Origin: Dechloromonas sp. TW-R-39-2
Lineage (GTDB): Bacteria; Pseudomonadota; Gammaproteobacteria; Burkholderiales; Rhodocyclaceae
DNA: 64,000 bases
NCBI RefSeq assembly: GCF_016864195.1
Contig: NZ_CP045202.1
Location: 496,001-560,000 of the forward strand
Direction of reading: 5' to 3'
The translations under genes and the position numbers were made by a program. Below are positions 35,872 to 51,596 of this stretch, piece after piece (position 1 is the stretch's first letter; each line of letters starts with the position of its first letter). A model generated the notes under the pieces. That model was not told where the DNA came from. It saw only the letters and a list, made by a program, of their open reading frames with translations, and searched no databases.

Positions 35872-36645
35872 TTAGCGGTTCTTGAACACCGGCTTGCGTT
35901 TCTCGACGAAGGCGGCCATGCCTTCCTTCTGGTCTTCCAGCGCGAAGGCCGAGTGGAAGACGCGGCGTTCGAACAGCAGGCCTTCGTTGAGCGAGCTTTC
36001 GTAGGCGCGGTTGACCGTTTCCTTGATCATCATCGCCACCGGCAGCGAGAAGCCGGCGATGGTCTGGGCGGCTTTCAGGGTTTCTTCGAGCAACTGTTCG
36101 GCCGGGATGATGCGGGCGACCAGACCGGCCTTTTCGGCTTCGGCGGCGTCCATCATGCGCCCGGTCAGGCACATGTCCATGGCTTTGGCCTTGCCGATGG
36201 CGCGCGGCAGGCGCTGCGTGCCGCCAGCGCCGGGCATGGTGCCGAGCTTGATTTCCGGCTGGCCGAACTTGGCGGTGTCGGCGGCATAGATCATGTCGCA
36301 CATCATCGCCATTTCGCAGCCGCCGCCCAGCGCGAAGCCCGCCACTGCGGCGATCACCGGCTTGCGGGCGGTTTTGACGCGCTCCCAGTTGCGGGTGATG
36401 AAATCAGTCTTGTAGGCGTGCATGTAATCGAAGTCCTTCATGAAGCCGATGTCGGCTCCAGCGGCGAAGGCTTTCTCATTACCGGTGATGACGATACAGC
36501 CGATGTTTTCGTCGGCTTCGAAGGCGTCGACCGCGGCACCGATGCCGTCGACCACGTCATTGTTCAGCGCATTCATCGCCTCCGGGCGGTTGATGCGGAT
36601 CAGACCCACTTTGCCGTGGATTTCGGTCAGAACTACTTGTGTCAT
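35872..36645 (-). CDS. paaF: Enoyl-CoA hydratase PaaF (2,3-dehydroadipyl-CoA hydratase)
   Basis: 257-residue crotonase. It has [16 protein letters not shown], the oxyanion-hole [37 protein letters not shown] and [19 protein letters not shown] with both catalytic glutamates of a true hydratase. GGAGAG precedes ATG 36645. In phenylacetate catabolism this step hydrates 2,3-dehydroadipyl-CoA. It is separated from the rest of the cluster by a terminator, so it may be transcribed separately. The role as PaaF is by context; the crotonase class is certain. Confidence 0.85.
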
Positions 36646-36663
36646 TGCTGCTCTCCAGAGTGC

Positions 36664-36699
36664 AAAAAAATGGCCGCCAAGGGCATGCCCCGGGCGGCC
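36664..36699 (-). terminator. Rho-independent terminator after the binding-protein gene
   Basis: On the minus strand GGCCGCC and GGCGGCC pair around a GC-rich loop that is itself self-complementary (GGGCATGCCC), followed by ATTTTTTT. It lies immediately after the ABC binding-protein stop and before the paaF ribosome site, so it should end most transcripts from the upstream paa genes. Confidence 0.85.
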
Positions 36700-36717
36700 C
36701 AAGTCGAATGAATCTTG

Positions 36718-37863
36718 TTATTGAACGAGCGACCAGTCGCCGTTCTTGATCTCAAGCAGGCGGAAAGCCGAGAGATCGAGGCCCATGTGGTCGGTCGCAG
36801 ACATATTAACCACGCCGCCGGTTCCGACATAGCCCTTGGTCGCTTCGATGGCATCGCGTACGGCGGCCTTGTCGGTCGATTTGGCCCGTTTGATGGCGTC
36901 GACCGCAATCATCAGACCGTCATAGGCGTGACCGCCGAAGGAGGAAACGTCGTTCTTCCACTTGTCGTTGTAAGCCTTGGTGTAGGCCGTGACCACCGGC
37001 TTTTGCGGGTCCTTGGCATCGAGCTTGTCGGCAACGAGCAGTGCCGCTGCCGGCAAACGAACCCCTTCGGCCGCCGGTCCGGCGAGCTTGATGAACTCTT
37101 CGGAAGCGACGCCGTGAGCGTGATAGAGCGGCAGGCTGATGCCCAGTTGCTTGTAGTTCTTGGTGACGATGGCCGGACCCTGGCCGAGACCGAAGACAAA
37201 CACGGCCTGGACGCCGGCGGTGTTCTTGATCTTGGTCAGCTGCGGGCTCATGTCGGTGTCTTTCGGACCGTAGGTCTCGTTGGCCACCAGGGTGACGCCG
37301 TATTTGGCGGCAACGCCTTCGGTTTCCTTCTTGCCGGAATTACCGAAGCCGCTGGTTTCGGAGAGCAGGGCAACCTTGGTCAGGCCGCGCTTCTTCATGT
37401 CCTCGAAGACCTTTTCAGCCGCCATGCGGTCGGTGTGCGGGGTTTTGAAAATCCATTTCTTGACCGGCTCGACAATGACCACGGCACCGGCCAGCGAAAT
37501 GAAAGGAATACCGGCTTTTTCAACCAGTGGGGCCATCGACATGGTGGCGCCGGTGGTTGTGCCGCCGACCAGGATGTCGACCTTGTCGTCGTCGATCAGG
37601 CGCTTGGCAAAGCCGTTGGCCTTGTTGGCATCGCTGCCGTCGTCGTAATGTACCAGCTGGAGCGGACGACCGAGCACGCCGCCCTTCTTGTTGATGTCTT
37701 CGACGTACATCTGGATCGTTTTCAGTTCCGGATCGCCGAGGAAGGCGGCCGGGCCGGTGACCGAGAGTACCGAGCCGATCTTGATCGGTTCGGCGGCGAT
37801 GGCGCCAAAGGCACCGAGGACCAGCGCAGCACCGGCAACCAGCTTCTTGATGGTTTGTTTCAT
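36718..37863 (-). CDS. ABC transporter substrate-binding protein, Leu/Ile/Val-type (Peripla_BP_6)
   Basis: 381 residues with a signal peptide (KKLVAGAALVLGAFGAIAAEP). The mature domain has IKIGSVLSVTGPAAFLGDPELKTIQMYVEDINKKGG and later VDILVGGTTTGATMSMAPLVEKAGIPFIS, typical of the LivK/AmiC type I fold. No permease or ATPase gene is in the window, so it is an orphan receptor. Its position within the paa genes suggests phenylacetate or another aromatic acid as ligand (inference). GAGGAG precedes the ATG. Confidence 0.88.
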   Translation of the reverse strand: MKQTIKKLVAGAALVLGAFGAIAAEPIKIGSVLSVTGPAAFLGDPELKTIQMYVEDINKKGGVLGRPLQLVHYDDGSDANKANGFAKRLIDDDKVDILVGGTTTGATMSMAPLVEKAGIPFISLAGAVVIVEPVKKWIFKTPHTDRMAAEKVFEDMKKRGLTKVALLSETSGFGNSGKKETEGVAAKYGVTLVANETYGPKDTDMSPQLTKIKNTAGVQAVFVFGLGQGPAIVTKNYKQLGISLPLYHAHGVASEEFIKLAGPAAEGVRLPAAALLVADKLDAKDPQKPVVTAYTKAYNDKWKNDVSSFGGHAYDGLMIAVDAIKRAKSTDKAAVRDAIEATKGYVGTGGVVNMSATDHMGLDLSAFRLLEIKNGDWSLVQ

Positions 37864-37933: not shown

Positions 37934-39139
37934 TCAGACGCGCTCGATCACCATCGCGATGCCTTGCCCGACACCGATACACATGGTGCACAGGGCGTAG
38001 CGGCCGCCACGGCGTTTAAGTTCATAGGCGGCGGTGGTGACCAGCCGGGCGCCGCTCATGCCGAGCGGGTGGCCGAGGGCAATTGCCCCGCCGTTCGGAT
38101 TGACATGCGCCGCATCGTCGGCCAGGCCGAGGTCGCGCAGAACGGCCAGCCCCTGGGCGGCGAAAGCTTCGTTGAGTTCGATGACATCCATCTGGTCGAG
38201 GCGCAGGCCGGTCTTGGCGAGCACCTTGCGCACCGCCGGCGCCGGGCCGAAACCCATGATGCGCGGCAGCAGGCCGGCCGTCGCCATGCCGACGACGCGA
38301 ACCAGCGGCGTCAGACCGTACTGGCTGGCGGCAGCGCCGGAAGCGAGCAGCAGGGCGCAGGCACCGTCATTGACGCCGGAAGCGTTGCCGGCCGTAACCG
38401 ACAGCTCAGGACCATTGACGCCCTTCAGCTTGGCCAGCATTTCCAGCGTTGTTTCGGGCCGTGGATGTTCGTCGACCGCGACAATCACCGGGTCGCCCTT
38501 TTTCTTCGGGATGCTGACCGGGACGATTTCGTCGGCGAAGCGTCCGGCTGCCTGGGCGGCGGCCCAGCGCTGCTGCGAACGGACGGCGAAGGCATCCTGG
38601 TCGGCGCGGTTGATGGCAAAGTCGGCGGCGACGTTGTCGGCCGTCTGTGGCATCGAATGCGTGTCGTACAGCTTCTTCATCAACGGATTGGCGAAGCGCC
38701 AGCCGATGGTCGTATCGTAGATCGCCGCGTTGCGTGAAAAAGCCGATTCGGCCTTGCCCATGACGAAGGGGGCGCGCGACATGCTTTCGACGCCGCCGGC
38801 GATCATCAACTCGGTTTCACCCGACTTGATCGAACGGGCCGCCAGGCCGATGGCATCCATGCCTGAGCCGCACAGGCGGTTGACCGTGGTACCCGGCACC
38901 TCGACCGGCAGGCCGGCGAGCAGGCCGGACATGCGGGCGACGTTGCGGTTGTCTTCGCCGGCCTGGTTGGCGCAGCCGTAGATGATGTCCTCGACGGCTG
39001 TCCAGTCGACTTGCGGATTGCGTTCCATCAGCGCCTTGAGCGGGATGGCGCCGAGGTCGTCGGCGCGCACGCCGGAGAGGGCGCCGCCGTAGCGGCCGAT
39101 CGGGGTGCGGATGGCGTCGCAGATAAAGGCTTCGTTCAT
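37934..39139 (-). CDS. paaJ: 3-oxoadipyl-CoA / 3-oxo-5,6-dehydrosuberyl-CoA thiolase PaaJ
   Basis: 401 residues (403 if ATG 39145 is used; the GAGG spacing favours 39139). The thiolase nucleophile is in [12 protein letters not shown], the histidine in [19 protein letters not shown] and the second cysteine in [13 protein letters not shown]. The N-terminal [20 protein letters not shown] is characteristic of the PcaF/PaaJ thiolases. It performs the two thiolytic steps that release acetyl-CoA and succinyl-CoA. Ten bases downstream of paaK. Confidence 0.93.
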
Positions 39140-39149
39140 CGTCATGTCC

Positions 39150-40475
39150 TCAGTTCTGCTTCGGGCGTTCGTCGAGCACGCGGCGGGCCTTGCCGACCTG
39201 GGTGCGTGGAATGGAGTCGAATTCCATGACCGTGACCTTGGTCGAGATGCCGATGATGGTCTTGATCCGGTGCTGCAGTTCCTTGGTCATGGTCTGGATG
39301 TCGGCCGTACTCAGCTTGCCGGCCAGTTCGTGCTGGGTTTCGCAGCGCACTTCGACATTGTCGAGGTGGCCGTCGCGGGTCACCACAACCTGGTAATTGC
39401 CGGACAGGCGCTGGTCGCGCAGGATCTGTTCCTCGATCTGGGTCGGGAAGACATTGACGCCGCGGATGATCAGCATGTCGTCCGAACGGCCGGTGATCTT
39501 GCCGATCCGGCGGAAGGAGCGGGCGGTCGGCGGCAGCAGGCGGGTCAGGTCGCGGGTGCGGTAGCGGATGACCGGGAAGGCTTCCTTGGTCAGCGAGGTG
39601 AAGACGAGTTCGCCTTCTTCGCCATCGGCCACCGGCTCGCCGGTTTCCGGGTTGATGATTTCGGGATAGAAATGGTCTTCCCAGATCACCGGACCATCCT
39701 TGGTTTCAATACATTCGCAGGCCACGCCGGGGCCCATGACTTCGGTCAGGCCGTAAATATCGATCGCGTCGATGCCCAGTTTGCGCTCGATTTCGGCGCG
39801 CATGCCTTCACCCCACGGCTCGGCGCCGAATATGCCGACCTTGAGCGAAATGTCTTCCGGCTTGATGCCCTGACGCTCGAATTCCTCGGCGATGACCAGC
39901 GAGTAGGACGGCGTGACCATGATGATGTCTGGCTGGAAATCGACGATCTGCTGAACCTGTTTCTCGGTCTGGCCGCCCGACATCGGGACGACGGTACAGC
40001 CGAGGCGCTCGGCGCCGGCGTGGGCGCCCAGGCCGCCGGTGAACATGCCGTAGCCGTAGGCGTTGTGCAGCATGTCGCCAGCCCGGCCACCGGCCGCACG
40101 GATAGAGCGCGCCACCAGGTTGGCCCAGTTGTCGAGGTCGTTCTTGGTGTAGCCGACGACGACCGATTTGCCGGTCGTGCCGCTCGAGGCGTGCAGACGG
40201 GCGACTTTTTCGCGCGGTACGGCGAACAGGCCGAAGGGATAGTTGTCGCGCAGGTCGGTCTTGGTCATGAACGGGAACTTGGCGATATCGGCCAACGTTT
40301 GCAGTTCATCCGGATGCACGCCCTTGTCCAGGCACTTCTTGCGATAAGCCTCGACGTTGTCGTAGGTGTGGCGCACCGACCATTTCAGGCGTTCGAGCTG
40401 GAGCGCCGAGATTTCTTCGCGGCTGGCGGTTTCAATCGGCTCAAGCTCGCCGGGCAGCGGTTTTTTTGCAGTCAT
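39150..40475 (-). CDS. paaK: Phenylacetate-CoA ligase PaaK
   Basis: 441 residues, normal for PaaK. The AMP-binding P-loop is LHASSGTTGKSVVVGYT; AYGYGMFTGGLGAHAGAERLG, YGLTEVMGPGVACEC and TRDLTRLLPP (acceptor side) are strongly conserved in the family. It activates phenylacetate to phenylacetyl-CoA, committing the pathway. GGAGAGAG lies before the ATG. The presence of this enzyme fixes phenylacetyl-CoA as the pathway entry compound. Confidence 0.96.
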   Translation of the reverse strand: MTAKKPLPGELEPIETASREEISALQLERLKWSVRHTYDNVEAYRKKCLDKGVHPDELQTLADIAKFPFMTKTDLRDNYPFGLFAVPREKVARLHASSGTTGKSVVVGYTKNDLDNWANLVARSIRAAGGRAGDMLHNAYGYGMFTGGLGAHAGAERLGCTVVPMSGGQTEKQVQQIVDFQPDIIMVTPSYSLVIAEEFERQGIKPEDISLKVGIFGAEPWGEGMRAEIERKLGIDAIDIYGLTEVMGPGVACECIETKDGPVIWEDHFYPEIINPETGEPVADGEEGELVFTSLTKEAFPVIRYRTRDLTRLLPPTARSFRRIGKITGRSDDMLIIRGVNVFPTQIEEQILRDQRLSGNYQVVVTRDGHLDNVEVRCETQHELAGKLSTADIQTMTKELQHRIKTIIGISTKVTVMEFDSIPRTQVGKARRVLDERPKQN

Positions 40476-40498: not shown

Positions 40499-40966
40499 TC
40501 AGGCGGCCTGGTCGGCCTGTTGTAATCCGGCGATGACTTCGCCGGCGATGCGGTAGCTCTTGCCCCGGAACAGGGCGATGGTCTGGCCGTTTTCACCGCG
40601 CACGGTGATGTCGTACACACCGGTCCGGCCGGCCAGCGAACGTTCGACGGCTTCGGCTTCCAGCGTTTCGCCTTCCTTGCCGGGGGCGAGAAAGTCGATG
40701 TGGCAGGCCGAGGCGACGGTGTTGCGGTTGTAGCTGTTGCAAGCGAAGGCGAAGGTGCTGTCGGCCAGCGTGAAGATGAAGCCGCCGTGACAGATGTGGT
40801 GCCCGTTGACCATGTCGCCGCGGACTTTCATCGCAATCCGGGCGTAACCCGGTCGCACTTCGCGGATTTCCATGCCCATGCCCTGGCTGGCGCGGTCGCG
40901 CGACCACATGGCCTGCGTGACTTGTTCGGCCAGCACCTGGGCAGCGTTGTCGTGTGGATCAGCCAT
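40499..40966 (-). CDS. paaI: Hydroxyphenylacetyl-CoA thioesterase PaaI
   Basis: 155-residue hotdog thioesterase. It has NGHHICHGGFIFTLADSTFAFACNSYN with the catalytic aspartate, and CHIDFLAPGKEGETLEAEA. PaaI removes dead-end CoA esters during phenylacetate degradation. ATG 40966 follows GGAAGGAAG; a start six codons earlier would overlap paaH further. It overlaps the paaH stop by eight bases. Confidence 0.93.
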   Translation of the reverse strand: MADPHDNAAQVLAEQVTQAMWSRDRASQGMGMEIREVRPGYARIAMKVRGDMVNGHHICHGGFIFTLADSTFAFACNSYNRNTVASACHIDFLAPGKEGETLEAEAVERSLAGRTGVYDITVRGENGQTIALFRGKSYRIAGEVIAGLQQADQAA

Positions 40967-42488
40967 GAATCTTCCTTCCGGCAAAAACGGCGCGCTGGAT
41001 CAGCGGCGAAATGCGATAGCGGTCCTCGCCGTAGCTGGTGCCGAGGTAGGCCAGCACGTCGCGGATCGTTTCAACGCCGACCTGATCGGCCCAGGCGAGC
41101 GGCCCTTGCGGATAATTGACTCCGAGTCGCATCGCGGCATCGGCGGCGGTTTCCGAGCAAACGCCCTGGTTGACCGCGTCAGCCGCTTCGTTGGCCAGCA
41201 TGGCGACGGTGCGCATGACAGCCAGGCCGGGAATGTCGAGAAAGCGGCTGATGGCGAAACCGGCAGCTTGCAGCAGCCCGGTGGCGGCGGCGATTGCCGA
41301 TGGCTCGCATTGTTCGGCAGCGGCCATCGCCAGTCGGGTGGCCTTGTCGTAGTCGAGCGCCAGATCGATCAGCACGGTGTTGTCTACGCCGGATTCGGCG
41401 GCGCGCTGGGTGGCGCTGCGGCCGTCGGTGACGTAGATCACGGCGCGGCCGATTTCGGCGATCCGGCCGTCACTGTCGGGGGCGCGGCTGAACGACAGGC
41501 CGGAGTGGGTCAGGCGATCGGCCAGCGCTTCGGCGGCGATCGATTCGCCACAAATGACGATCATCCCGGCTGGCACCTGGGCTGCCTCGGTTTGTGCCGC
41601 CGGGTGGCTGGCGCCGTCGCGGTAGTCGTAGAAACCGCGGCCGGTCTTCTTGCCGAAGAAGCCGGCGTCGACCAGTTCCTGCTGGATCAGTGAAGGCAGG
41701 AAACGCTGGTCGTTGTAGAAGGCGCGCCAGACCGAGTTGGTCACTGCGAAATTGACGTCGTGGCCGATCATGTCCATCAGCTCGAACGGTCCCATGCGGA
41801 AACCGCCGGCCTCACGGCAGCAGGCGTCGATCGTTGCGTAATCGGCCGCGCCTTCCTGGGCCAGGCGCAGAGCCTCGGCGTAGTAGGGACGGGCGACGCG
41901 ATTGACGATGAAACCGGGCGTCGATTTGGCATGCACCGGCGTCTTTCCCCAGGCGGCGGCGCTGGCGAACAAGGTGTCGGCGACGGCCTTGTCGGTGGCC
42001 AGGCCGGAAACGATCTCAACCAGCGCCATCAGCGGTGCCGGGTTGAAGAAATGCAGGCCGGCCAGACGTTCCGGGTGTTTCAGTGCCGCGCCGATGGCGG
42101 TGACCGAAATCGACGAGGTGTTGGTCCCGAAAATGCAGTCAGGGCCGACGATGGCTTCGAGATCGCGGTACAGCGTCTGCTTGGCTTCAAGGCTTTCGAC
42201 AATCGCTTCGACGATCAGGCCGGCATCGGCCAGGTCGGCCAGTTCATGCACGGCACTCAGTCGGGCGCTGGCGGCGGCTGCGGCTTCCGCGGTCAACTTG
42301 CCTTTTTCGGCCATTTTGGCGAATTGGGCGCGAATGCCTTCAACCGCACGGGCGGCGGCATCCGGCCGGTTGTCGAGCAGCTTGACCGGGTGGCCGGCCG
42401 CGGCCGCCACCTGGGCAATGCCGGCGCCCATCGCGCCGGTGCCGACAACGGCAATGATGGTCTGCTGGGGCAGGGGTGTGTGGCTCAC
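40959..42488 (-). CDS. paaH: 3-hydroxyacyl-CoA dehydrogenase PaaH
   Basis: 509 residues. The start is taken as GTG 42488, with GGAGAG eight bases upstream, directly after the paaG stop; an ATG at 42518 would lie inside paaG. The Rossmann motif is IIAVVGTGAMGAGIAQVAAAAGH, followed by FGTNTSSISVTAI, LHFFNPAPLMALVEIV and MGPFELMDMIGHDVN. A second, C-terminal dehydrogenase-type helical domain is present, as in other PaaH proteins. It oxidises 3-hydroxyadipyl-CoA with NAD. Confidence 0.94.
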   Translation of the reverse strand: MSHTPLPQQTIIAVVGTGAMGAGIAQVAAAAGHPVKLLDNRPDAAARAVEGIRAQFAKMAEKGKLTAEAAAAASARLSAVHELADLADAGLIVEAIVESLEAKQTLYRDLEAIVGPDCIFGTNTSSISVTAIGAALKHPERLAGLHFFNPAPLMALVEIVSGLATDKAVADTLFASAAAWGKTPVHAKSTPGFIVNRVARPYYAEALRLAQEGAADYATIDACCREAGGFRMGPFELMDMIGHDVNFAVTNSVWRAFYNDQRFLPSLIQQELVDAGFFGKKTGRGFYDYRDGASHPAAQTEAAQVPAGMIVICGESIAAEALADRLTHSGLSFSRAPDSDGRIAEIGRAVIYVTDGRSATQRAAESGVDNTVLIDLALDYDKATRLAMAAAEQCEPSAIAAATGLLQAAGFAISRFLDIPGLAVMRTVAMLANEAADAVNQGVCSETAADAAMRLGVNYPQGPLAWADQVGVETIRDVLAYLGTSYGEDRYRISPLIQRAVFAGRKIHG

Positions 42489-42492
42489 GCTT

Positions 42493-43287
42493 TCACTCTC
42501 CGGTGAAATTCGGCGCACGCTTTTCGGTGAAGGCCTTGACGCCCTCGGCGTAGTCCGGCGACCAGCCGAGTTCGCGCATCATGCCGCCTTCGAAGGACAG
42601 CTGTTGTTCGAGCGTGTGGCCGGGTGCGGCGTGCATCGCCTGACGGGTGCGGACCAGGGCCTTGGTTGGCGCGGTCGACAGTTGTTTGGCCAGCGAATCG
42701 ATGCGTGCGGCAAACTCGGCATCCTCGACACATTCCCAGATCAGGCCCCATTCGGCAGCCTTTTCAGCCGGCATCTTTTCAGCCAGCAGGGCGAGGCCCA
42801 TGGCGCGGGCCATGCCAACGCGCTGCGGCAGGAACCAGGTGCCGCCGGTATCCGGAATCAGGCCGATCTTGCTGAAGGCCTGCAGGAAAGAGGCAGACTT
42901 GGTGGCGATCACCAGATCGCAGGCCAGCGCCACCGAAGCGCCGGCGCCGGCGGCGATGCCGTTGACCGCGGCAATGGTCGGCACGCGCAGGTTCTGCAGG
43001 CGCAGCACGAGCGGCTTGTAATTGCGTTCGACGGTGTTGCCGATGTCCGGCATCTTGCCGGCCTGGATCTGCATCGCACGGTCGCCGAGATCCTGCCCGG
43101 CCGAGAAGCCGCGACCGGCGCCGGTCAGCACCAGCACGCGGATCGAGGTGTCGGCCTGAACCTGGTCGAGCGCGACGCGCAGTTCGGCATGCATGTCGTC
43201 GGTGAAGCTGTTGAGCTTGTCCGGACGGTTCAGGGTCAGGCGGGCGATGCCGTCCTGGACTTCAAACTTGATGTTCTCGAAATTCAT
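42493..43287 (-). CDS. paaG: 1,2-epoxyphenylacetyl-CoA isomerase PaaG
   Basis: 264-residue crotonase. The active-site aspartate lies in FSKIGLIPDTGGTWFLP, as in isomerases of this group rather than hydratases. GAGRGFSAGQDLGDR is the oxyanion hole. PaaG turns ring 1,2-epoxyphenylacetyl-CoA into the oxepin. Its presence implies that an epoxide is made upstream, although paaABCDE is not in the window. Its ATG abuts the paaN stop (TAA-ATG). Confidence 0.94.
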   Translation of the reverse strand: MNFENIKFEVQDGIARLTLNRPDKLNSFTDDMHAELRVALDQVQADTSIRVLVLTGAGRGFSAGQDLGDRAMQIQAGKMPDIGNTVERNYKPLVLRLQNLRVPTIAAVNGIAAGAGASVALACDLVIATKSASFLQAFSKIGLIPDTGGTWFLPQRVGMARAMGLALLAEKMPAEKAAEWGLIWECVEDAEFAARIDSLAKQLSTAPTKALVRTRQAMHAAPGHTLEQQLSFEGGMMRELGWSPDYAEGVKAFTEKRAPNFTGE

Positions 43288-44967
43288 TTAGTTCTCCTGG
43301 GCAACGTGATAGCGGCGCTGGACGACCCGGAAACGATTGGCGACGAAGGCCGAATCGGCGTAGGACGCATTGGCTGCCGGGTTGCCGCCGGTCCCATGGT
43401 AGTCGGAGAAAGCGGCCGACTGATTGACGAAGACGCCGCCGGTCAGGTTGATCGACAGGGCGACCTTGGAACGCATCGTGGCGGCGGTCATCGCGTCGAT
43501 GACTTCCGCCTTGGTCGAATAGACGCCGGCGGTCAGGGCGCCGTGGGTGCTGACGATGCGTTCGGACAGGGCGATGGCGGCTGCCGTGTCGGCCACCTTG
43601 ACAATGAAGCTGATCGGGCCGAAACGCTCTTCCATATAAGCCTTTTCGTCGGCGGCATCGCAGGCGAGCAGCACCGGGGTGCGGACTTCGGCCTTCGGGA
43701 ATTCCGGGTTTTCCAGCTTCTGCGAGGCGAGGATGACCTTGCCGAGCGAACCGCTGTCGGCTTCGGCAACGCGCTTGATGGTGTCGGCCGATTGCATGGC
43801 GCCGAGCACGGCGTGCGCCACTTCCGGCTTGGACAGGAAGCCGGAGACAGCCTTGGCCAGATCGGCGCAGACGTCGTCGTAGGACTTGTGGCCATCTTCG
43901 GTTTCGATGCCGCCGGCCGGCACGAACAGCGCCTGCGAGGTGGTGCACATCTGGCCGGAATAGAGCGACAGCGTGAAGGCCAGGTTGCGCAGCATCGGCT
44001 TGTAGGCGTCGGTCGAGTCGATGACGATGTTGTTCACGCCAGCCAGCTCGGCATAGACCTGAGCCTGGCGGCAGTGGTCGATCAGCCACTGGCCGAAAAC
44101 GTTGCCGCCGGTGAAGTCGATCGACTTGACGGCCGGATCGGTCACCAGCTTTTGCGTCGTTTCGCGCTGGTCGGTGACGCATAGCGTGACGAGATTCGGA
44201 TCGATACCGTTTTCGGCGAGCACGGCGCGGATCGTGCGCACGGTGATGGCGGCCGGCAGGATGGCCTGGCTGTGCGGCTTGACGATGACGGCGTTGCCGG
44301 TGGCCAGCGCAGCGAAAACGCCGGGGTAGGTATTCCAGGTCGGGAAGGTGCCGCAGCCGACCACGACGCCGACGCCGCGGCCGACGATTTCAAAATGCTT
44401 CTTCAGAATCAGCGAGGGATTCTTGCCCTGCGGCTTTTCCCAGATGGTTTCAGCCGGGACGAAAGACTGTTCGCGCCAGGCGTAGGCGACGGCTTCGAGG
44501 CCGCGATCCTGAGCATGCGGGGCGCCGGCCTGGAAGGCCATCATCCAGCCCTGGCCGGTGGTCAGCATCACGGCATGGGCCAGTTCGAAACTTTGCTTGT
44601 TCAGGCGGTCGAGGATTTCGACGCAGATGCCGGTGCGGCCTTCGGCACCGACCTTCTGCCAGCCGTCCATGGCCTTTTCGCCGGCAGCAATCAACGCGGC
44701 GTGATCGCACACCGGGTATTGCACATTCAGTTCGACGCCGTAGGGCGACTTTTCGCCGCCGGTCCAGCCGCTCTGGCCGGGCTGGCCCAGTTCGAATTGC
44801 TGGCCGAGATGGGCTTCGAAAGCCTTCTTGCCGTCTTCCGGGGCGGTTTCGCCGTAAGCGCGCGGGCTTGGCATTTCGTTGAAGGCTGCCCAGTAGCCGC
44901 GCGTGGCGATGGCATTCAGGGCGCTGTCGATGGTGGCGCGGTGCTTCTCGAACATGGGATGGGACAT
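43288..44967 (-). CDS. paaN: PaaN-type ring-opening aldehyde dehydrogenase
   Basis: 559 residues from ATG 44967, preceded by AGGAGA. It is an aldehyde dehydrogenase with VVVGCGTFPTWNTYPG, AVIVKPHSQAIL, the catalytic glutamate in YAELAGVNNIVI and the catalytic cysteine in LYSGQMCTTSQALFVP. The length matches the PaaN (TIGR02288) branch. It lacks the C-terminal MaoC-like oxepin-CoA hydratase domain carried by E. coli PaaZ (about 680 residues), so the hydrolytic ring-opening activity must be encoded elsewhere. First gene of the minus-strand paa operon. Confidence 0.9.
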   Translation of the reverse strand: MSHPMFEKHRATIDSALNAIATRGYWAAFNEMPSPRAYGETAPEDGKKAFEAHLGQQFELGQPGQSGWTGGEKSPYGVELNVQYPVCDHAALIAAGEKAMDGWQKVGAEGRTGICVEILDRLNKQSFELAHAVMLTTGQGWMMAFQAGAPHAQDRGLEAVAYAWREQSFVPAETIWEKPQGKNPSLILKKHFEIVGRGVGVVVGCGTFPTWNTYPGVFAALATGNAVIVKPHSQAILPAAITVRTIRAVLAENGIDPNLVTLCVTDQRETTQKLVTDPAVKSIDFTGGNVFGQWLIDHCRQAQVYAELAGVNNIVIDSTDAYKPMLRNLAFTLSLYSGQMCTTSQALFVPAGGIETEDGHKSYDDVCADLAKAVSGFLSKPEVAHAVLGAMQSADTIKRVAEADSGSLGKVILASQKLENPEFPKAEVRTPVLLACDAADEKAYMEERFGPISFIVKVADTAAAIALSERIVSTHGALTAGVYSTKAEVIDAMTAATMRSKVALSINLTGGVFVNQSAAFSDYHGTGGNPAANASYADSAFVANRFRVVQRRYHVAQEN

Positions 44968-45041
44968 CTTTTTCTCCTGGGATGAGCGTTTTCTGGTCAG
45001 GCACAGCACTTTATCGATGGCTGAAATGGCTGTTGCGTTAC

Positions 45042-45094
45042 CAATGTATCGATCTGTTGTTGATGCAATGTATCACATTGGAGGGCAATGTAAA
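45042..45094. promoter_or_regulatory. Repeated operator-like motif between paaN and the diiron gene
   Basis: CAATGTATC occurs at 45042-45050 and 45066-45074, and CAATGTAAA at 45086-45094. The middle copy forms a perfect 15-base inverted repeat, CAATGT-ATC-ACATTG (45066-45080). The sites lie 75-125 bases upstream of paaN, a good place for a local repressor such as PaaX encoded nearby. The binding protein is inferred, not shown. Confidence 0.5.
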
Positions 45095-45099
45095 CCAGT

Positions 45100-45339
45100 T
45101 TTGAATAACGTAATTGGTTCCACTGCATTCTAAAAATAATAATTAAAACAACAAATGTTTCTTGTTTTTGAAAGGATTTTTAGGTGTTGAATTGCGGCTT
45201 TTTGGATTGGTTCTATAAATAATTTCCTGAACGTGATACAAAAAGCGTTGACAAGATGGTTTGCTGTGTAACATGATGTTTCCACGGCAGCCAGTGATTG
45301 GCCCGGCCCCCAACCTGAAGACATGAATTAGGAGGAGAT
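45100..45339. promoter_or_regulatory. AT-rich leader with candidate promoter for the diiron gene
   Basis: No gene is seen in this part of the divergent gap. It is unusually A+T-rich for the window. A plus-strand promoter candidate is TTGACA (45249-45254) with CATGAT 18 bases on (45273-45278), or TAACAT at a 15-base spacing. A very strong AGGAGG site (45330-45335) precedes the ATG at 45340, implying high expression of the diiron protein. Confidence 0.5.
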
Positions 45340-46365
45340 ATGGCAAGTAAAGAAAAATTCGCGGACAAAATGGAATTCCCGCCGGCAATCGAGCAGCCGA
45401 ACATCTATCCGCTGTCCTGGAACAGCAAGACCAAGAAGTTGCAGGAAGTCTGGGAAGCCGCCCGTCGTGAAGACTGGGATCCGGAAAAGCTGCCTTGGGA
45501 TACGCTGGACGTCGATAGCTACACTTGGGAAGAGCGCGAATCCATCGCCTACTGGTGGAGCCTGCTTTCCGTGTTCGACGCATCGGCCCCGCCGGTGTTT
45601 GCCGAAGCCCTGATCAAGACCTACGAAGTGCACGAGGAAGATCCGGTTCGCAAGTGCTTCTTCTCGGTCACCCGTGACGAGCAGAACCACGAAATCATGT
45701 GCGGCCTGGCGATCACCAAGCTGCTCGGCCATCCGGACCCGATCACCTACGTGCCGAAGACCGACCTCGGCCGCCGCCTGCAGAAGAACGTGCAGTGGCT
45801 GTACTTCAACGGTGCGCGTTACTGGAACGGCTACAAGCAAGCCGTGCCGAAGTACGACCTGGCCGTGCTGTTCAGCTCTTTCCTGATGGGCGAAATCGCT
45901 GCCGCCACCATCTTCAAGCAGATGTTCGACAACTCCCGCGAAGCCGTCTTCAAGGAAGGTTTCAAGAACATCGGTCGCGACGAAGGCCGTCACATGGCGA
46001 TCTGCATGGCGGTGATGGAGCGTGATTACCCGGGCCTCAAGGAAGAGACCAAGGCCGTCGTCACCAAGCAGATCCGCGCCGGTTACCTGTTCCTGTCGGC
46101 CGTGCTGTTCGAGCCGCCGATGGAATTCTGGGACCTGCCGGCCGACTTCATCGCCAACCAGCGTGAAGGTGAAGAAGTGGCGCGTGGCGCCGGCTTCGGT
46201 ATCCCGACCTACGAGGCCAAGAAGGAAAACTGGAAGAATGCGATGATCAACCTGAAGGGTGTTCTGGATCGCTACAACATTCCATTCCCGGCCATCCCGG
46301 AAGTCGGCATCACCGGCCAGGAAGTCAGCGATGTGGATCTGGACGACATCATTCCGGTCTTCTGA
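45340..46365 (+). CDS. Ferritin-like diiron oxygenase, putative phenylacetyl-CoA ring epoxidase component
   Basis: 341 soluble residues. A four-helix diiron pattern is visible: D113-E114-x-x-H117 (RDEQNH) and E185 (MGEIA), then E215-x-x-H218 (RDEGRH). E185 and E215 are 30 residues apart as in R2-like oxygenases. The first ligand is probably E89 (FAEAL) or D80. It does not read like PaaA, PaaC or BoxB as I know them. It is divergent from paaN-G-H-I-K-J and followed by a flavin reductase and paaX. I infer an O2-activating oxygenase for phenylacetyl-CoA; the closest family could not be settled. Confidence 0.72.
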   Translation: MASKEKFADKMEFPPAIEQPNIYPLSWNSKTKKLQEVWEAARREDWDPEKLPWDTLDVDSYTWEERESIAYWWSLLSVFDASAPPVFAEALIKTYEVHEEDPVRKCFFSVTRDEQNHEIMCGLAITKLLGHPDPITYVPKTDLGRRLQKNVQWLYFNGARYWNGYKQAVPKYDLAVLFSSFLMGEIAAATIFKQMFDNSREAVFKEGFKNIGRDEGRHMAICMAVMERDYPGLKEETKAVVTKQIRAGYLFLSAVLFEPPMEFWDLPADFIANQREGEEVARGAGFGIPTYEAKKENWKNAMINLKGVLDRYNIPFPAIPEVGITGQEVSDVDLDDIIPVF

Positions 46366-46389
46366 TCGACGCCGTTCAGTCAATCACTC

Positions 46390-46470
46390 GTTCCGGTGAT
46401 GAATTTCACCTGGAACGGGCGGTAGACCGCAGTATTTGCTCCGGCCGGTGCCCTGAAAAGGGTGCCGGCC
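46390..46470 (+). promoter_or_regulatory. Two intergenic RNA hairpins between diiron and reductase genes
   Basis: The first is GTTCCGGTGA (46390-46399) with TCACC-T-GGAAC (46406-46416), ten pairs with one bulge. The second is a 12-pair stem (46443-46454 with 46459-46470, two G-T wobbles) closed by a GAAA tetraloop. Neither is followed by a T-run, so RNA processing or stability control fits better than termination and may set unequal expression of the two proteins. Confidence 0.55.
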
Positions 46471-46510
46471 TTGCCGCAACAGAGAAACCAATAAAACTAG
46501 GGGAAGAAAA

Positions 46511-47560
46511 ATGGCTCGCATCATCATGCAACCCTCGGGCAAGTCGGTCGAATGCGCTTATGGCGACACCGTGCTGATGGCCCTTGAAAAGGCTGGCTAC
46601 GCGCTGCCCAACAACTGCCGCGCCGGTGCTTGCGGCGAATGCAAGGTCAAGGTCACGACCGGCCAGTTCGATCAGGGCATGGTGCTCGACATGGCGCTGT
46701 CGCAGGATGAGCGCAAGCAAGGCTACGGCCTGATGTGTATGGCCAAGCCGATTTCCGAAGAACTGGTGATCGAGTGGGGTACCGAAGATGCCAAGCCGAA
46801 ACTCTTCCCGCCGCGCGAAGATGCGCTGTTCGTGGTCACCGACAAGCGGCCGATTGCCGCCCGTGTCGTTGAACTGCGCTTGCGTCCGGTCGGCCAGCCG
46901 ATCCGCTACTGGCCGGGCCAGTACGTGACCGTCGGCAATCCCCGCGCCGAAGTGCCGTCGCGTGCCTATTCGATCTCGAATGCTCCGCGTCCGGACGGCG
47001 AACTGGTGCTGCAGGTTGCCCGGGCCGAAGGCGGCGTGACCAGCAACTGGATTCACGACAGCCTGAACATCGGCGAAAACGTGAAGATTTCCGGTGCCTA
47101 CGGGACTTTCATCGGCGATCCGTCGGTCGATACGCCGGTGCTCTGCCTGGCGGCAGGAACCGGCCTGGCTCCGGTGCTGGCACTGGCCGAAGCGGCGCTG
47201 CGCCGTGGCTTCAAGAAGCCGGTGACGATGGTTTTCTCGGCCCGCACCAAGGAAGACGTTTACAGCCAGGGGATGATGGCCTGGTGGCGCACCAAGCACC
47301 GCAATTTCGACTACAAGGTGACGCTGACCCGCGAAGAAACCGAGGGTTATCTCAATGGCCGGGTCGATGCCGTGTTGCCGAAACTCTTCCCCGATCTCTC
47401 CAAACACACCATCTTTGCCGCCGGCAGCCCTGAATTTGTCGAGACCTGCGTCGCGACCGTCAAGGCGCTCGGTGCCCGCGAAGAACTGATCCACACCGAA
47501 GGTTTCTTCGCCCAGCAGCAACCCGTCGTGGCGGATGCCGACCACCTGCTGCCGCTGTGA
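46511..47560 (+). CDS. NAD(P)H:flavin/[2Fe-2S] reductase component of the diiron oxygenase
   Basis: 349 residues. An N-terminal plant-type ferredoxin has C36, C41, C44 and C76 (NNCRAGACGECK ... GLMCMA). A flavin domain carries the RAYSIS motif (R151-S156), and a nucleotide-binding domain has CLAAGTGLAPVLALAEAAL (near 210-228). This layout (ferredoxin first) matches the reductases of phenol, toluene and benzoate oxygenases (DmpP/BenC), not PaaE, whose ferredoxin is C-terminal. It should pass electrons from NAD(P)H to the diiron protein encoded just upstream. Confidence 0.88.
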   Translation: MARIIMQPSGKSVECAYGDTVLMALEKAGYALPNNCRAGACGECKVKVTTGQFDQGMVLDMALSQDERKQGYGLMCMAKPISEELVIEWGTEDAKPKLFPPREDALFVVTDKRPIAARVVELRLRPVGQPIRYWPGQYVTVGNPRAEVPSRAYSISNAPRPDGELVLQVARAEGGVTSNWIHDSLNIGENVKISGAYGTFIGDPSVDTPVLCLAAGTGLAPVLALAEAALRRGFKKPVTMVFSARTKEDVYSQGMMAWWRTKHRNFDYKVTLTREETEGYLNGRVDAVLPKLFPDLSKHTIFAAGSPEFVETCVATVKALGAREELIHTEGFFAQQQPVVADADHLLPL

Positions 47561-47601: not shown

Positions 47602-48597
47602 ATGCGCAAGTTATCCGCCCCGCCCGTTCAGGTCATTTCCGTGATTCAACCGATCCACAGTCGTCTCGAAGACTTTCGGCAGCAACGCCGGGTGCAGGCC
47701 GGCTCGCTCATCATTTCCGTCTTCGGCGACGCCGTCCTGCCACGCGGCGGCCGTATCTGGCTCGGCAGCCTGATCCGCCTGCTCGAACCGCTCGAACTCA
47801 ACGAACGCTTGATTCGCACCTCCGTTTTTCGGCTGGCCAAGGAAGAGTGGCTGCGCACCGAAACGGTCGGTCGGCGTGCCGACTATGTCCTGACCAACTC
47901 CGGACGGCGACGTTTCGAAGAGGCTTCGCGGCACATCTACGCGGCCCACGCACCGCTCTGGGATCGCCGCTGGCGCCTGATTCTGGCAGTCGGCGATTTT
48001 GACCCGAAAGAGCGCGAACGCCTGCGTCGAGCGCTGTTCTGGCAAGGCTTCGGCGTGCTCGGGGCCGACTGCTTCGTGCATCCCTCAGCCGATCTGACGG
48101 CGGCTTTCGACGCCCTGGTGGCCGAAGGCCTGTCCGATTTGCTCGACCGGCTGATGCCGCTGCTTGCTGCGGATTCGCGTTCCGGCCTGTCGGCCAATGA
48201 CGCCGATCTGGTGCGCCGGGCCTGGAATCTTGATGAACTCGGTACGGCTTATGCCGGGTTTGTCAGTACCTACCTGCCTATCCTGGCCGAACTGCGCCGC
48301 GACCGGCAGGTCGAGGTCGATCCGGAAGATGCCTTTCTGCTGCGCACCTTGCTGATTCACGACTATCGTCGCCTGCTGCTGCGCGACCCGGAACTGCCCG
48401 ACGTGCTGCTGACGGCCGACTGGCCGGGCCAGAAGGCGCGGCTGTTGTGCAAGGAACTCTATCGTCGCCTGGCGCTGGCTTCCGAGCGGCACCTCGACAA
48501 GTTCCTGACGCTGGCGGATGGCAGTGCACCGGCCAGCGATCCGGCCTATGCCGAACGTTTCCCGCTCGACGACCCGCTCAACTCGATGGTGCTGTAA
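47602..48597 (+). CDS. paaX: Phenylacetate pathway transcriptional repressor PaaX
   Basis: 331 residues. The N-terminal winged helix contains GSLIISVFGDAVLPRGGRIWLGSLI and LIRTSVFRLAKEEWL. The central WDRRWRLILAVGDF and FGVLGADCFVHPS, and the C-terminal LLRTLLIHDYRRLLLRDPELPDVLLTADWPG, are family blocks. PaaX represses phenylacetate genes until phenylacetyl-CoA binds. Its presence next to the diiron/reductase pair ties that pair to phenylacetate control. It begins 41 bases after the reductase, probably cotranscribed. Confidence 0.93.
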   Translation: MRKLSAPPVQVISVIQPIHSRLEDFRQQRRVQAGSLIISVFGDAVLPRGGRIWLGSLIRLLEPLELNERLIRTSVFRLAKEEWLRTETVGRRADYVLTNSGRRRFEEASRHIYAAHAPLWDRRWRLILAVGDFDPKERERLRRALFWQGFGVLGADCFVHPSADLTAAFDALVAEGLSDLLDRLMPLLAADSRSGLSANDADLVRRAWNLDELGTAYAGFVSTYLPILAELRRDRQVEVDPEDAFLLRTLLIHDYRRLLLRDPELPDVLLTADWPGQKARLLCKELYRRLALASERHLDKFLTLADGSAPASDPAYAERFPLDDPLNSMVL

Positions 48598-48788
48598 GCC
48601 GAAGGCCGCGCCGGCCAGTTTCGGCGCATCCCGATTTCCCCCGATTTTCGCGGTCGACCGCAGCATCCGGCAAAAATACGGCCCTTGATCCAAGCGACAT
48701 GAAGCCAGCGAAGCTGCCGTTTTTCTGTCATTGAACCGCAACAATGGCTTCATAAGATGAGCGCCCACTCGTGCTCTTCCTGGTTGCC

Positions 48789-51596
48789 ATGAAACTTTTC
48801 GAACCTGCGGTTCGCCTGGTCGGACATCTCTCCTTTCGCAACAAGCTGCGTGCCACCGCCATCGTCTTCGGCCTGCCGCTCCTGCTGGCCGCCGGTTTGC
48901 TGGTGTACGAATTGCAGGCCCGCGTTGCCACCTTGCAAAATGAGCGGGCAGAACTGAGCCTGCAAGTGCCGGCGCTGGCCTTGCTCGGTCATCTGCACCA
49001 GATCGTCGCGGCCGGGCAGGCCTTGCAGGAGGGCGACGTATCAAGCGAGGCCCTGCTGGCCAATAGCCGGAAACAAGCCAGGAATGCCCTGGATACGCTG
49101 GATGCCGGGTTTTCTGCAACGAAGCTGCAAGCGGTGGCCGGGGCCGACGGCAATCCGGCATGGTTGTCGCGTCGCGCCGCGCTGGCCGAACAGATCGAAC
49201 ACGCCGGTGCCGACGATATTGCCGCGCTGATTCCCTTGCTGCGCAGCGAACTTGAACGGATGAACGAAAAAGCCGGTTTGCTGATCGACGGCGATACGGC
49301 GAGCAGCCGTCTGCTCGATATCATCACGGCCCATTTGCCGGGCCTGATCGAAACCAATGGGCAGGCTGCACGGCTGGGGACGAATGTGCTGCTCAAGAAA
49401 AGCGTGCGCGGCAGTCGGCGGACCGATCTGACCTTGCAGCGCGGCAATTTCGACGCGCTGGTGCTGTGGAGCATGGATGGCCTGCAGAAGGTGGCCAGCG
49501 AGCATCCGGAACGTTCGGCTGCACTGAATCAGGCCGGTGCGCAGATGAACACCGCGTACCTGGCCGTCCAGGAAGCGATCACGATCAAGATGCTGGATAC
49601 GACCGATTACGACATGACGCCGGCGGCCTACCTTGATCTGACGGCCAAGGCGATGGATGAAACGCTGGCCGTCGCCGGCATCCTGATTGCCCAGGCCGAT
49701 GTGCTGCTGAATGAGCGGTTGAGTGTGCTGCAGACCCAGCGCAATATCGTGGTTGCCGTGATGGCGATCATCCTGGCGATTGTCGCGGCCGGCTTCATCG
49801 CTGCCTACATTTCGATCATGCGCGGCCTGAACGGCCTGGCTGACGCGGTCAACACCATGGCCGAGGGCAATCTCGAAGCGCGTGTCGATGTCACCAGCCG
49901 CGACGAAATCGGGGCGGTCGGCACGCAGTTCAACAACATGGCGGAAAGCCTGGCCGAGCGGACCTCGCAGTTGCGTGAAAAGACCAAGGATATTCACGGC
50001 ATGCTGCAGAACATGACGCAGGGCATCCTGACGATCATGGCCGACGGCAAGGTGCACCACGAGTACTCGGCTTATCTCGAAACAATTTTCGAAACCCGCG
50101 AGATCGCCCGGCGTCCGGCACTGGATTTCCTGTTTTCCAGCAGCGATGTCGGGGCGGATGCCCTGTCGCAGATCGAGGCAACGGTGGCTTCCTGCATCGG
50201 CGAAGAACGGATGAATTTCGATTTCAACGCCCATCTGCTGGTCAACGAAGTGCGCCAGACCTGGCCGGACGGCCGCGAGAAATATCTCGATCTGGTCTGG
50301 TCGCCGATTTGCGATGAAAATGATGTGGTCGAGAAACTGATGGTTTGCGTCCGCGATGTCACCGAGCTGCGTCAGCTGGTCGCCGAGGCAGAGCATCAGA
50401 AGCGCGAGCTGGACATGATCGGCCAGATTCTCAAGGTGACGCACGAGAAATTCCACGACTTCATCGACAGTTCGCGCCGCTTCATTGTTGATAACGAAGC
50501 CTTGCTCCAGTCGGCGGTCAGTCTGTCGCCCGATCTGGTGACGCAGTTGTTCCGCAACATGCATACGATCAAGGGCAACGCGCGCACATACGGGCTGTTG
50601 CACATGACCAATGTCGTGCATCTGGCCGAACAATCCTACGAAGCCTTGCGTCAGGGGCGCGCGGCCTTTGTGCCGGATGTCCTGCTCGTCGAGCTGGATG
50701 CGGTGCGCTGCAGCCTGGAGGAATACGCCCACCTCAACGATGTGACGCTGGGCCGCAAGGGGCCGGGCCGGCGCGGTAGTGCCGAGAAGTACGCCATGGT
50801 CGAACACGGCCATCTGGCCAGCATGCGTGCGGCACTCGATGCCTACGATCTGTCGGCTTGCCACCACGATACGCTGGTCGCGCTGGTTCGCCAGATCAAG
50901 CTGGATCTCGATTTGATCGGGACGGAGTCGATCAACACGATTCTCGCCCCAGTGTTCGATTCGCTGCCTTCGCTGGCCGCCGAACTGGGCAAGGAAGCGC
51001 CTCGGCTGGTCGTCAGCGATCATGGCATCCGCCTGCGCAACCAGGTGTCCGACCTGCTGCGCAACGTTTTCATGCACCTCTACCGCAATGCGATGGATCA
51101 CGGTGTCGAAGTCGCGGTCGACCGGCTGGCCAAAGGCAAAACGGCCAGCGGCACGATCGGCTTGCGCCTGAGCATGAATGGTGGATTACTCAAATTCCAT
51201 CTCGGCGACGATGGCAAGGGCCTGGCGCTCGGTCACATTCGGCGCAAGGCAATCGCTCAGGGACTGATTGCCGAAGGGGTTGAGGTGGCCGATGAAACCG
51301 TCGCCAACCTGATTTTTGCCGCCGGTTTCTCGACCGCCGCAGCCGTCACCGAAGTTTCCGGGCGTGGGGTCGGCATGGATGCGGTGCAGGACTTCATCAA
51401 GCGCGAAGGCGGCAAGATCGCCTTGCACTTTGTCGATCAGCGGATCGGCGAGGATTTCCGGGCGTTTGAAACGGTGATCGAATTGCCGGCCAGGTTTGCT
51501 GTCCTCAGTGCGCTGGCACCCGACACATCGGTCCCGAAACCGTCTGCCGTACAGGGGCTGTCGCCATTGTTGCCAGTCCGTCTGGCCGAGGCGTGA
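48789..51596 (+). CDS. Membrane CheA-like histidine kinase (HAMP-PAS-HPt-HATPase)
   Basis: 935 residues from ATG 48789 (GTG 48771 possible). TM1 is near 20-40; a large helical periplasmic region runs to about 315; TM2 is near 319-343; HAMP follows ([17 protein letters not shown]), then a PAS-like domain (about 400-530). An HPt domain has the phosphoacceptor in [13 protein letters not shown] (about H592). A CheA-type ATPase has N-box [21 protein letters not shown] and [12 protein letters not shown]. It ends about 30 residues after the ATPase, so the CheW-binding P5 domain is missing. It combines receptor and kinase in one chain. Confidence 0.85.

Follow-up and report, generated by a model that had tools for sequence, protein, structure and literature searches.

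How does a bacterium make the ring epoxide of phenylacetyl-coenzyme A (phenylacetyl-CoA) when its genome holds enzymes for the later steps of phenylacetate degradation and lacks PaaA and PaaC of the multisubunit epoxidase PaaABCDE? This question is raised by 64,000 nucleotides of Dechloromonas sp. TW-R-39-2 (contig NZ_CP045202.1, positions 496,001 to 560,000; the whole stretch is referred to as the window, and positions are counted from its first letter), where a paa gene cluster is accompanied by two genes encoding a diiron protein and a ferredoxin-type reductase. Judging from sequence and comparative genomics, we consider that these two proteins quite probably form a two-component monooxygenase that converts phenylacetyl-CoA into 1,2-epoxyphenylacetyl-CoA. 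The pair has a distribution bound to PaaG, it is preceded by a PaaX-type operator, and the downstream genes are kept in genomes without PaaA/PaaC; the simplest account of these results is that the pair supplies the substrate of PaaG.

The diiron protein and its reductase

The putative oxygenase component, a proposed phenylacetyl-CoA epoxidase subunit, is encoded at 45340..46365 on the forward strand and comprises 341 residues; its assignment as a diiron oxygenase draws on residue conservation and an R2-like fold. The predicted metal ligands are D80, E114, H117, E185, E215 and H218, all of which are invariant in 42 of 42 alignment rows (window protein included, with identity down to ~50%). D80 is likely the sixth ligand, and with its addition the residues match the four carboxylates and two histidines expected of an R2-type site. 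In the structural model, two ExxH motifs and two more carboxylates lie within an R2-type helical fold, and among the structural matches R2lox and R2 rank best, at 11-12% identity in those alignments. The solved structures of PaaA and PaaC are not among the structural matches listed for the model, which excludes nothing. A sequence search of solved structures gave nothing useful, the best E-values being 0.61 for the protein and 1.4 for its profile.

In a Pfam scan up to an E-value of 10, the diiron protein matched only AurF and, weakly, Rubrerythrin. The AurF (PF11583) score of 20.6 bits lies under the 29.6-bit gathering threshold, though many homologues bear a precomputed PF11583 label. The same scan found neither the PaaA/PaaC domain (PF05138) nor PF00268, a label that some relatives bear. 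Altogether 1038 relatives were detected, and among 120 listed ones those with names are called 'hypothetical', 'rubrerythrin', 'ferritin-like', 'AurF' or 'diiron oxygenase'.

The partner gene (46511..47560, forward strand) encodes an NAD(P)H reductase in which an N-terminal [2Fe-2S] ferredoxin domain is followed by flavin adenine dinucleotide (FAD) and NAD domains, a BenC-type layout identified from Pfam, NCBIfam and adjacency (Fer2 at residues 7-80, FAD at 118-200 and NAD at 213-313 in Pfam). All NCBIfam scores are far under their cut-offs: BenC is best with 153.6 of 430 bits, PaaE third with 127.6 of 420.8 and MmoC fourth with 123.9 of 500, and the BoxA model (TIGR03224) reaches 28.7 bits against 459.2. 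Of 80 loci examined, 79 have room for a gene behind the diiron gene, and in every one of them that gene is the reductase. The open reading frame (ORF) coordinates, the diiron motifs, the N-terminal ferredoxin and the position beside paaX, as given in a first-pass annotation of the window, all agree with the ORF and Pfam analyses.

The weak AurF match, together with R2lox and R2 as the best structural matches, would fit an AurF-like N-oxygenase or an R2lox-like oxidase that lies beside paa genes by chance. This explanation is hardly credible in view of the constant reductase partner, the presence of PaaG in every carrier genome and an operator pattern in common with the paa genes, the latter two being described below.

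Co-occurrence with PaaG and PaaA/PaaC

The window's genome, a single contig of 3.46 Mb that is 99.99% complete, has no PF05138 match; no genome-wide search was made for PaaB, PaaD and PaaE. The first pass named paaABCDE elsewhere in the genome as part of what would refute it; for PaaA and PaaC none was found, PF05138 having been the sole query. In the comparative sets, strong PaaA/PaaC matches were defined by E <1e-80 in a sample of the window's taxonomic family and by a best hit <1e-90 in 30 chosen and five extra genomes.

The family sample comprises 199 genomes, of which 54 have strong matches, 40 have the diiron gene (two as fragments, in G036 and G192; G and L numbers denote genomes and loci) and 85 have PaaG above its cut-off. 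All 40 diiron carriers have PaaG, which corresponds to a hypergeometric probability of 1.8e-18 that ignores kinship. Twenty-two carriers also have PaaA/PaaC, and the 18 without it are spread over 10 of 17 genera. Of the 85 PaaG genomes, 53 contain PaaA/PaaC, 18 the diiron gene only and 14 neither in full form. Within Dechloromonas, five genomes possess the diiron gene and PaaG, and G151 and G185 are devoid of diiron gene, PaaG and PaaA/PaaC alike. One genome of the genus, G056, was identified by its coordinates as the diiron-only type strain Dechloromonas denitrificans ATCC BAA-841 (L014).

The 30 genomes chosen from the 80 loci all encode PaaG, and PaaA/PaaC is missing in 15. Five more genomes, representing all extra-family carriers from the phylum and order samples, likewise all have PaaG, two of them without PaaA/PaaC. 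After the seven genomes common to the family and chosen sets (identical coordinates) were counted once, the pooled carriers number 68, with PaaG in 68 of 68 and no PaaA/PaaC in 32. Among the diiron-only genomes are those of Brachymonas denitrificans, Castellaniella caeni, C. defragrans and the alphaproteobacterium Insolitispirillum peregrinum; both systems occur together in, for example, a Zoogloea. Outside the family the gene is rare, at one of 232 genomes for the class (the window's own), three of 397 for the phylum and six of 250 for the order; each count includes the window's genome, and three of the order's six belong to its genus. The class sample was searched with one alignment, the phylum and order samples with another.

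These 32 genomes also bear on the idea that the pair is an accessory to the pathway, which for instance removes toxic epoxide by deoxygenation or consumes O2, and that aerobic phenylacetate degradation has been lost from genomes without PaaABCDE. Deoxygenation has a precedent in PaaABCE itself, which, as Teufel reportedly described in 2012, both forms and deoxygenates the epoxide. An accessory role is nevertheless very unlikely, as PaaG scores above its cut-off in all 32, the window has the full series paaK, G, N, H, I, J and X, and an accessory would have no substrate without an epoxidase.

Weaker PF05138 matches were left uncounted in 22 of the 76 matching family-sample genomes and in two (G443, G455) of the 30 chosen ones. 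In 17 of the 22, the best hits range from ~3e-7 to 6e-5 and fall, where shown, in ORFs of ~480-520 residues; two ORFs of this kind (L100, L102) score as BoxB above the cut-off. The other five genomes (G006, G026, G059, G063, G154) have divergent hits of 1e-19 to 1e-27. In G063, the divergent PaaA/PaaC-domain protein (L094 7123-7941; 25% identity to E. coli PaaA) is encoded directly upstream of paaG, and PF05138 matches occupy the same place in G006, G026 and G154. Such a protein, in genomes with no full PaaABCDE and no diiron gene, is possibly a third route to the epoxide. PaaG-positive family genomes with neither epoxidase were also observed (L096 6968-7759 in G124, and L093 in G008), and in G008 an IS1595-type transposase lies between the paa genes.

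PaaX-type operators

The E. coli PaaX site is given as TGATTC(N27)GAATCA, with phenylacetyl-CoA as inducer, in PMC9493321; the E. coli paaA promoter reads TGATTC-N27-GAATCG. Upstream of the diiron gene, at 45234..45273 on the forward strand, we found a predicted PaaX-type operator, TGATAC-N28-GTAACA, that has one mismatch, contains a TTGACA box and differs from the E. coli site in the hexamer and by one base of spacing. A second predicted operator with two mismatches precedes paaN (45036..45075, reverse strand). These are the sole matches in the 64 kb of the window at up to two mismatches and a spacing of 27-28, one facing each gene.

Across 81 upstream regions (the 80 loci and the window), TGATAC-N27/28-GTATCA with at most two mismatches occurs within 200 bp of the diiron gene in 69, compared with a mean of 1.02 and a maximum of 3 in 100 dinucleotide shuffles. 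At up to one mismatch, the count is 51 of 81 against a shuffle mean of 0.03 and a maximum of 1. Neighbouring pairs of spacings give only 0 to 4 matches at up to two mismatches in the 81 regions. The spacing histogram over 350-bp regions, also at up to two mismatches, peaks at 27-28 (35 matches at 27 and 79 at 28, with 16 at 33), and at least one half-site is present in 69 of 81 regions, compared with a plain-shuffle mean of 26.7.

The operators that stand away from other paa genes matter most. Mismatch-free copies without other paa genes nearby were found in three Achromobacter loci (L063, L069, L071) and in L118 from the window's class, and in Paraburkholderia (L051) a mismatch-free copy has paaX as the only paa gene near. 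Among seven further loci, L118 is mismatch-free, L120 has one mismatch and L117 two, and none was found in L119, L108, L105 and L106.

The paa genes around the pair and gene order in relatives

The diiron/reductase pair is divergent from the paaN operon and is followed on its own strand by a gene for the phenylacetyl-CoA-responsive repressor PaaX (47602..48597; TIGR02277, 272.3 bits, cut-off 264.55). On the reverse strand, the operon begins with PaaN (43288..45009; TIGR02288, 906.3 bits, cut-off 578.75), which is an aldehyde dehydrogenase only (Pfam Aldedh alone). It continues with the 1,2-epoxyphenylacetyl-CoA isomerase PaaG (42493..43287; TIGR02280, 382.9 bits, cut-off 345.15), the 3-hydroxyacyl-CoA dehydrogenase PaaH (40959..42518; TIGR02279, 678.4 bits, cut-off 669.4), the thioesterase PaaI (40499..40984; TIGR02286, 166.2 bits, cut-off 118.9), the phenylacetate-CoA ligase PaaK (39150..40475; TIGR02155, 704.4 bits, cut-off 646.3) and a PaaJ/PcaF-type 3-oxoadipyl-CoA thiolase (37934..39145; TIGR02430, 728.5 bits, cut-off 597). 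The next gene on this strand (36718..37863) encodes a putative substrate-binding protein of a branched-chain-amino-acid-type ATP-binding cassette (ABC) transporter, named by similarity only and outside the family scan; it has 26-30% identity to annotated Variovorax ABC substrate-binding proteins and recurs in relatives' operons. Beyond it lies an enoyl-CoA hydratase (35872..36702, reverse strand; NF004517, 449.1 bits, cut-off 396), for which a PaaF role is plausible, not proven, with the PaaF model at 273 bits below its cut-off of 371. The downstream set, described as complete in the first pass, therefore stands for PaaX, N, G, H, I, K and the thiolase, and falls short at PaaF and at the ring hydrolase considered below.

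The genome has a second paaK (G000:C1:3085769), which adjoins genes for succinate-CoA ligase and for a MATE pump; the six neighbours scanned include no oxygenase. Downstream of paaX, 48771-51596 encodes a large sensor-like protein with a HAMP/CheA-like look, as judged by its translation alone.

Gene order was compared in the 55 loci that extend at least 9 kb upstream of the diiron gene: in 43 the divergent neighbour is paaN, 49 contain some paa gene, and 19 have a PaaA match. The first-pass picture of a paa cluster without paaABCDE does not extend to these 19 of 55, in which paaA lies in the same stretch. In loci such as L006, L012, L019 and L031, the far end of this operon is where paaA starts, so that loss of paaABCDE there would need only the operon end to go. 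The converse damage is seen in L095 (3860-4502, G192), where the middle of the diiron gene is gone (leaving residues 2-125 and 242-341), paaA-D are kept and the reductase and paaX adjoin, as redundancy would predict. On plasmid pVF1 of Vitreoscilla filiformis (L108, NZ_CP022424.1, 1744-14063), paaABCDE and the diiron/reductase pair form one cluster.

Some diiron gene copies stand alone, with neighbours that have no evident link to them. The surroundings of L079, L076, L063, L071, L044 and L082 were considered as pointers to another substrate and rejected, as no single pathway emerged, although not every neighbour was scanned. The scanned genes are mostly housekeeping or unrelated (argG, ornithine carbamoyltransferase, argD, yajQ, murJ, pilin, ProQ, CobD and KfrA); two do not fall in this class but have no obvious connection either, namely an aldehyde dehydrogenase that L063 carries ~5 kb from the pair and, in L071, a PhyH protein.

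A second group of diiron proteins

A second group, defined as an identity class and not from a tree, is represented by plasmid-borne Variovorax proteins with ~52% identity to the window protein (L105, NZ_LR594663.1, 5598-21017; L106, CP063167.1, 767-17017). Members at ~50% identity are named from Variovorax, other Proteobacteria, Myxococcota and cyanobacteria-related genomes. The two Variovorax clusters hold a ligase, a crotonase, a MaoC hydrolase, a thiolase, an ABC transporter and an indolepyruvate ferredoxin oxidoreductase gene, to which L106 adds a PaaN above cut-off and a CoA transferase. The ligase is PaaK-like (282.6 bits against 646.3), the crotonase scores best with the model of the alternative oxepin-CoA hydrolase and resembles PaaG as well, both below cut-off, and the stand-alone MaoC domain matches the C-terminus of PaaZ. 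PaaABCDE was not found in the stretch read around these pairs. Such a cluster is probably a second, parallel arylacetyl-CoA pathway, and this resemblance suggests that the whole diiron family may oxygenate aryl-CoA rings. We regard it as evenly balanced whether the window protein represents a new family of two-component epoxidases for aryl-CoA rings, in which one group has taken phenylacetyl-CoA epoxidation over from PaaABCDE on several occasions and the second drives parallel hybrid pathways for other arylacetyl-CoAs.

Proposed function of the pair

In the proposed mechanism, electrons from NAD(P)H would pass through FAD and the N-terminal [2Fe-2S] domain of the reductase to the R2-like diiron site, which would activate O2 and epoxidise the ring of phenylacetyl-CoA. 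With the presumed 1,2-regiochemistry, the product would be 1,2-epoxyphenylacetyl-CoA, the substrate of PaaG. PaaX, with phenylacetyl-CoA as its inducer, would repress both the pair and the divergent paaN operon by binding to the matching operators. The pair would be an isoenzyme in lineages that keep PaaABCDE and the sole epoxidase in the window's genome. Where both systems are present, the isoenzyme may possibly work at a different oxygen range; several carriers have denitrifier names, and a low-oxygen role is a guess from these names.

Several observations weigh against phenylacetyl-CoA epoxidation by the pair. Both systems are found in 36 of the 68 carrier genomes, so the pair is often an isoenzyme and no plain replacement; the first-pass claim that it stands in place of PaaABCDE is accordingly confined to genomes without PaaA/PaaC, of which the window's is one. 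The presence of PaaABCDE was judged by PF05138 alone in all genomes, in one of the 18 PaaA/PaaC-less family genomes (G036) the diiron gene is just a fragment, and several of the 30 chosen genomes are metagenome-assembled genomes of ungiven completeness, so that some PaaA/PaaC absences may be gaps. The 14 of 85 PaaG genomes with neither full system imply that PaaG alone requires neither. A ring-hydrolase domain is absent from PaaN, and no ring hydrolase, of the MaoC type or otherwise, turned up among the genes scanned; an aldehyde-dehydrogenase-only PaaN is reported from other phenylacetate degraders in PMC9493321. The hexamer TGATAC was picked after the same, related regions had been viewed, and the shuffle control thus overstates independence. 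Twelve of the 81 upstream regions fall outside the operator definition. Two of these come close: L078 (Insolitispirillum, diiron-only) has a mismatch-free copy at -203, just beyond 200 bp, and L042 a mismatch-free copy with spacing 29. In L046 (Brachymonas, diiron-only) the matches are only weak or far off, with two mismatches at spacing 26 at -106 and one mismatch at -303. Nothing operator-like was seen in the other nine (L053, L056, L064, L067, L074, L076, L077, L079, L080), of which L076, L077, L079 and L080 come from Azoarcus and Pseudothauera records.

Coexistence in those 36 genomes would also suit a pair that acts on some other arylacetyl-CoA or a related CoA ester, such as a ring-substituted phenylacetyl-CoA, or that hydroxylates instead of epoxidising, with the product still passing to the same later enzymes; genomes that keep PaaABCDE would then divide substrates between the two systems. 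The second group points the same way, since it sits in a different aryl-CoA cluster that has a ligase of its own, and the family thus probably extends beyond phenylacetyl-CoA. For the window's pair we regard a different substrate as unlikely: the 32 PaaA/PaaC-less genomes keep PaaG above cut-off, the known substrate of PaaG is the unsubstituted epoxide, and the operator resembles the site of PaaX, which answers to phenylacetyl-CoA. Phenylacetyl-CoA epoxidation remains our preferred reading. The suggestion of a two-component epoxidase distinct from PaaABCE gains partial support from the constancy of PaaG, from the 32 genomes without PaaA/PaaC and from the operator.

Neither the window protein nor any alternative phenylacetyl-CoA epoxidase was found described in the open PMC literature searched (subscription papers and preprints being outside this scope), and as far as that literature shows this would be a new enzyme type for a known step. 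An alternative oxepin-CoA hydrolase is reported in PMC9007349, D. aromatica is mentioned as having a phenylacetic acid cluster termed 'ubiquitous' (PMC2907700), and PaaA and PaaC are proposed as genomic markers of the phenylacetate pathway, as recently as a 2026 survey (PMC13186573). If our reading is true, genomes like that of the window are scored as lacking a phenylacetate pathway that they have, a family of about a thousand detected relatives gains a function, and ring epoxidation of a CoA ester would be performed by an enzyme far simpler than the PaaABCE complex and easier to study and use.

Comparison with known systems

The pair would share with PaaABC(D)E the proposed reaction, a CoA-ester substrate, an NAD(P)H reductase and PaaX-type control. 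The two systems differ in layout: PaaA acts with PaaB and PaaC, whereas the window system has one catalytic polypeptide without PF05138, and the ferredoxin domain is C-terminal in PaaE and N-terminal in the window reductase. In hhalign comparisons, the diiron profile reached probabilities of 0.6% with PaaA and 0.2% with PaaC, a blunt test with narrow profiles in which the controls gave 56% for PaaA with PaaC and just 11% for PaaA with BoxB. PaaA has the ferritin-like diiron catalytic fold common to R2-like proteins. The first-pass annotation had called the pair unrelated to PaaABCE in architecture; family models and subunit layout agree with this, and the ferritin-like/R2 fold, common to the modelled diiron protein, BoxB and PaaA, does not.

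Another comparable system is the benzoyl-CoA 2,3-epoxidase BoxAB, with BoxB, the analogue named in the first pass, sharing the ferritin-like/R2 fold of the diiron model. BoxB is longer, at ~473 residues versus 341, and its model (TIGR03225) has no match in the window protein. R2lox proper has a Val-Tyr crosslink; from R2lox and ribonucleotide reductase R2 the window protein differs by its own reductase and a catabolic operon. Compared with the diiron N-oxygenases AurF, CmlI and VlmB, it scores below the Pfam cut-off, though many homologues bear the AurF label, and it has a catabolic aryl-CoA context and a dedicated ferredoxin reductase.

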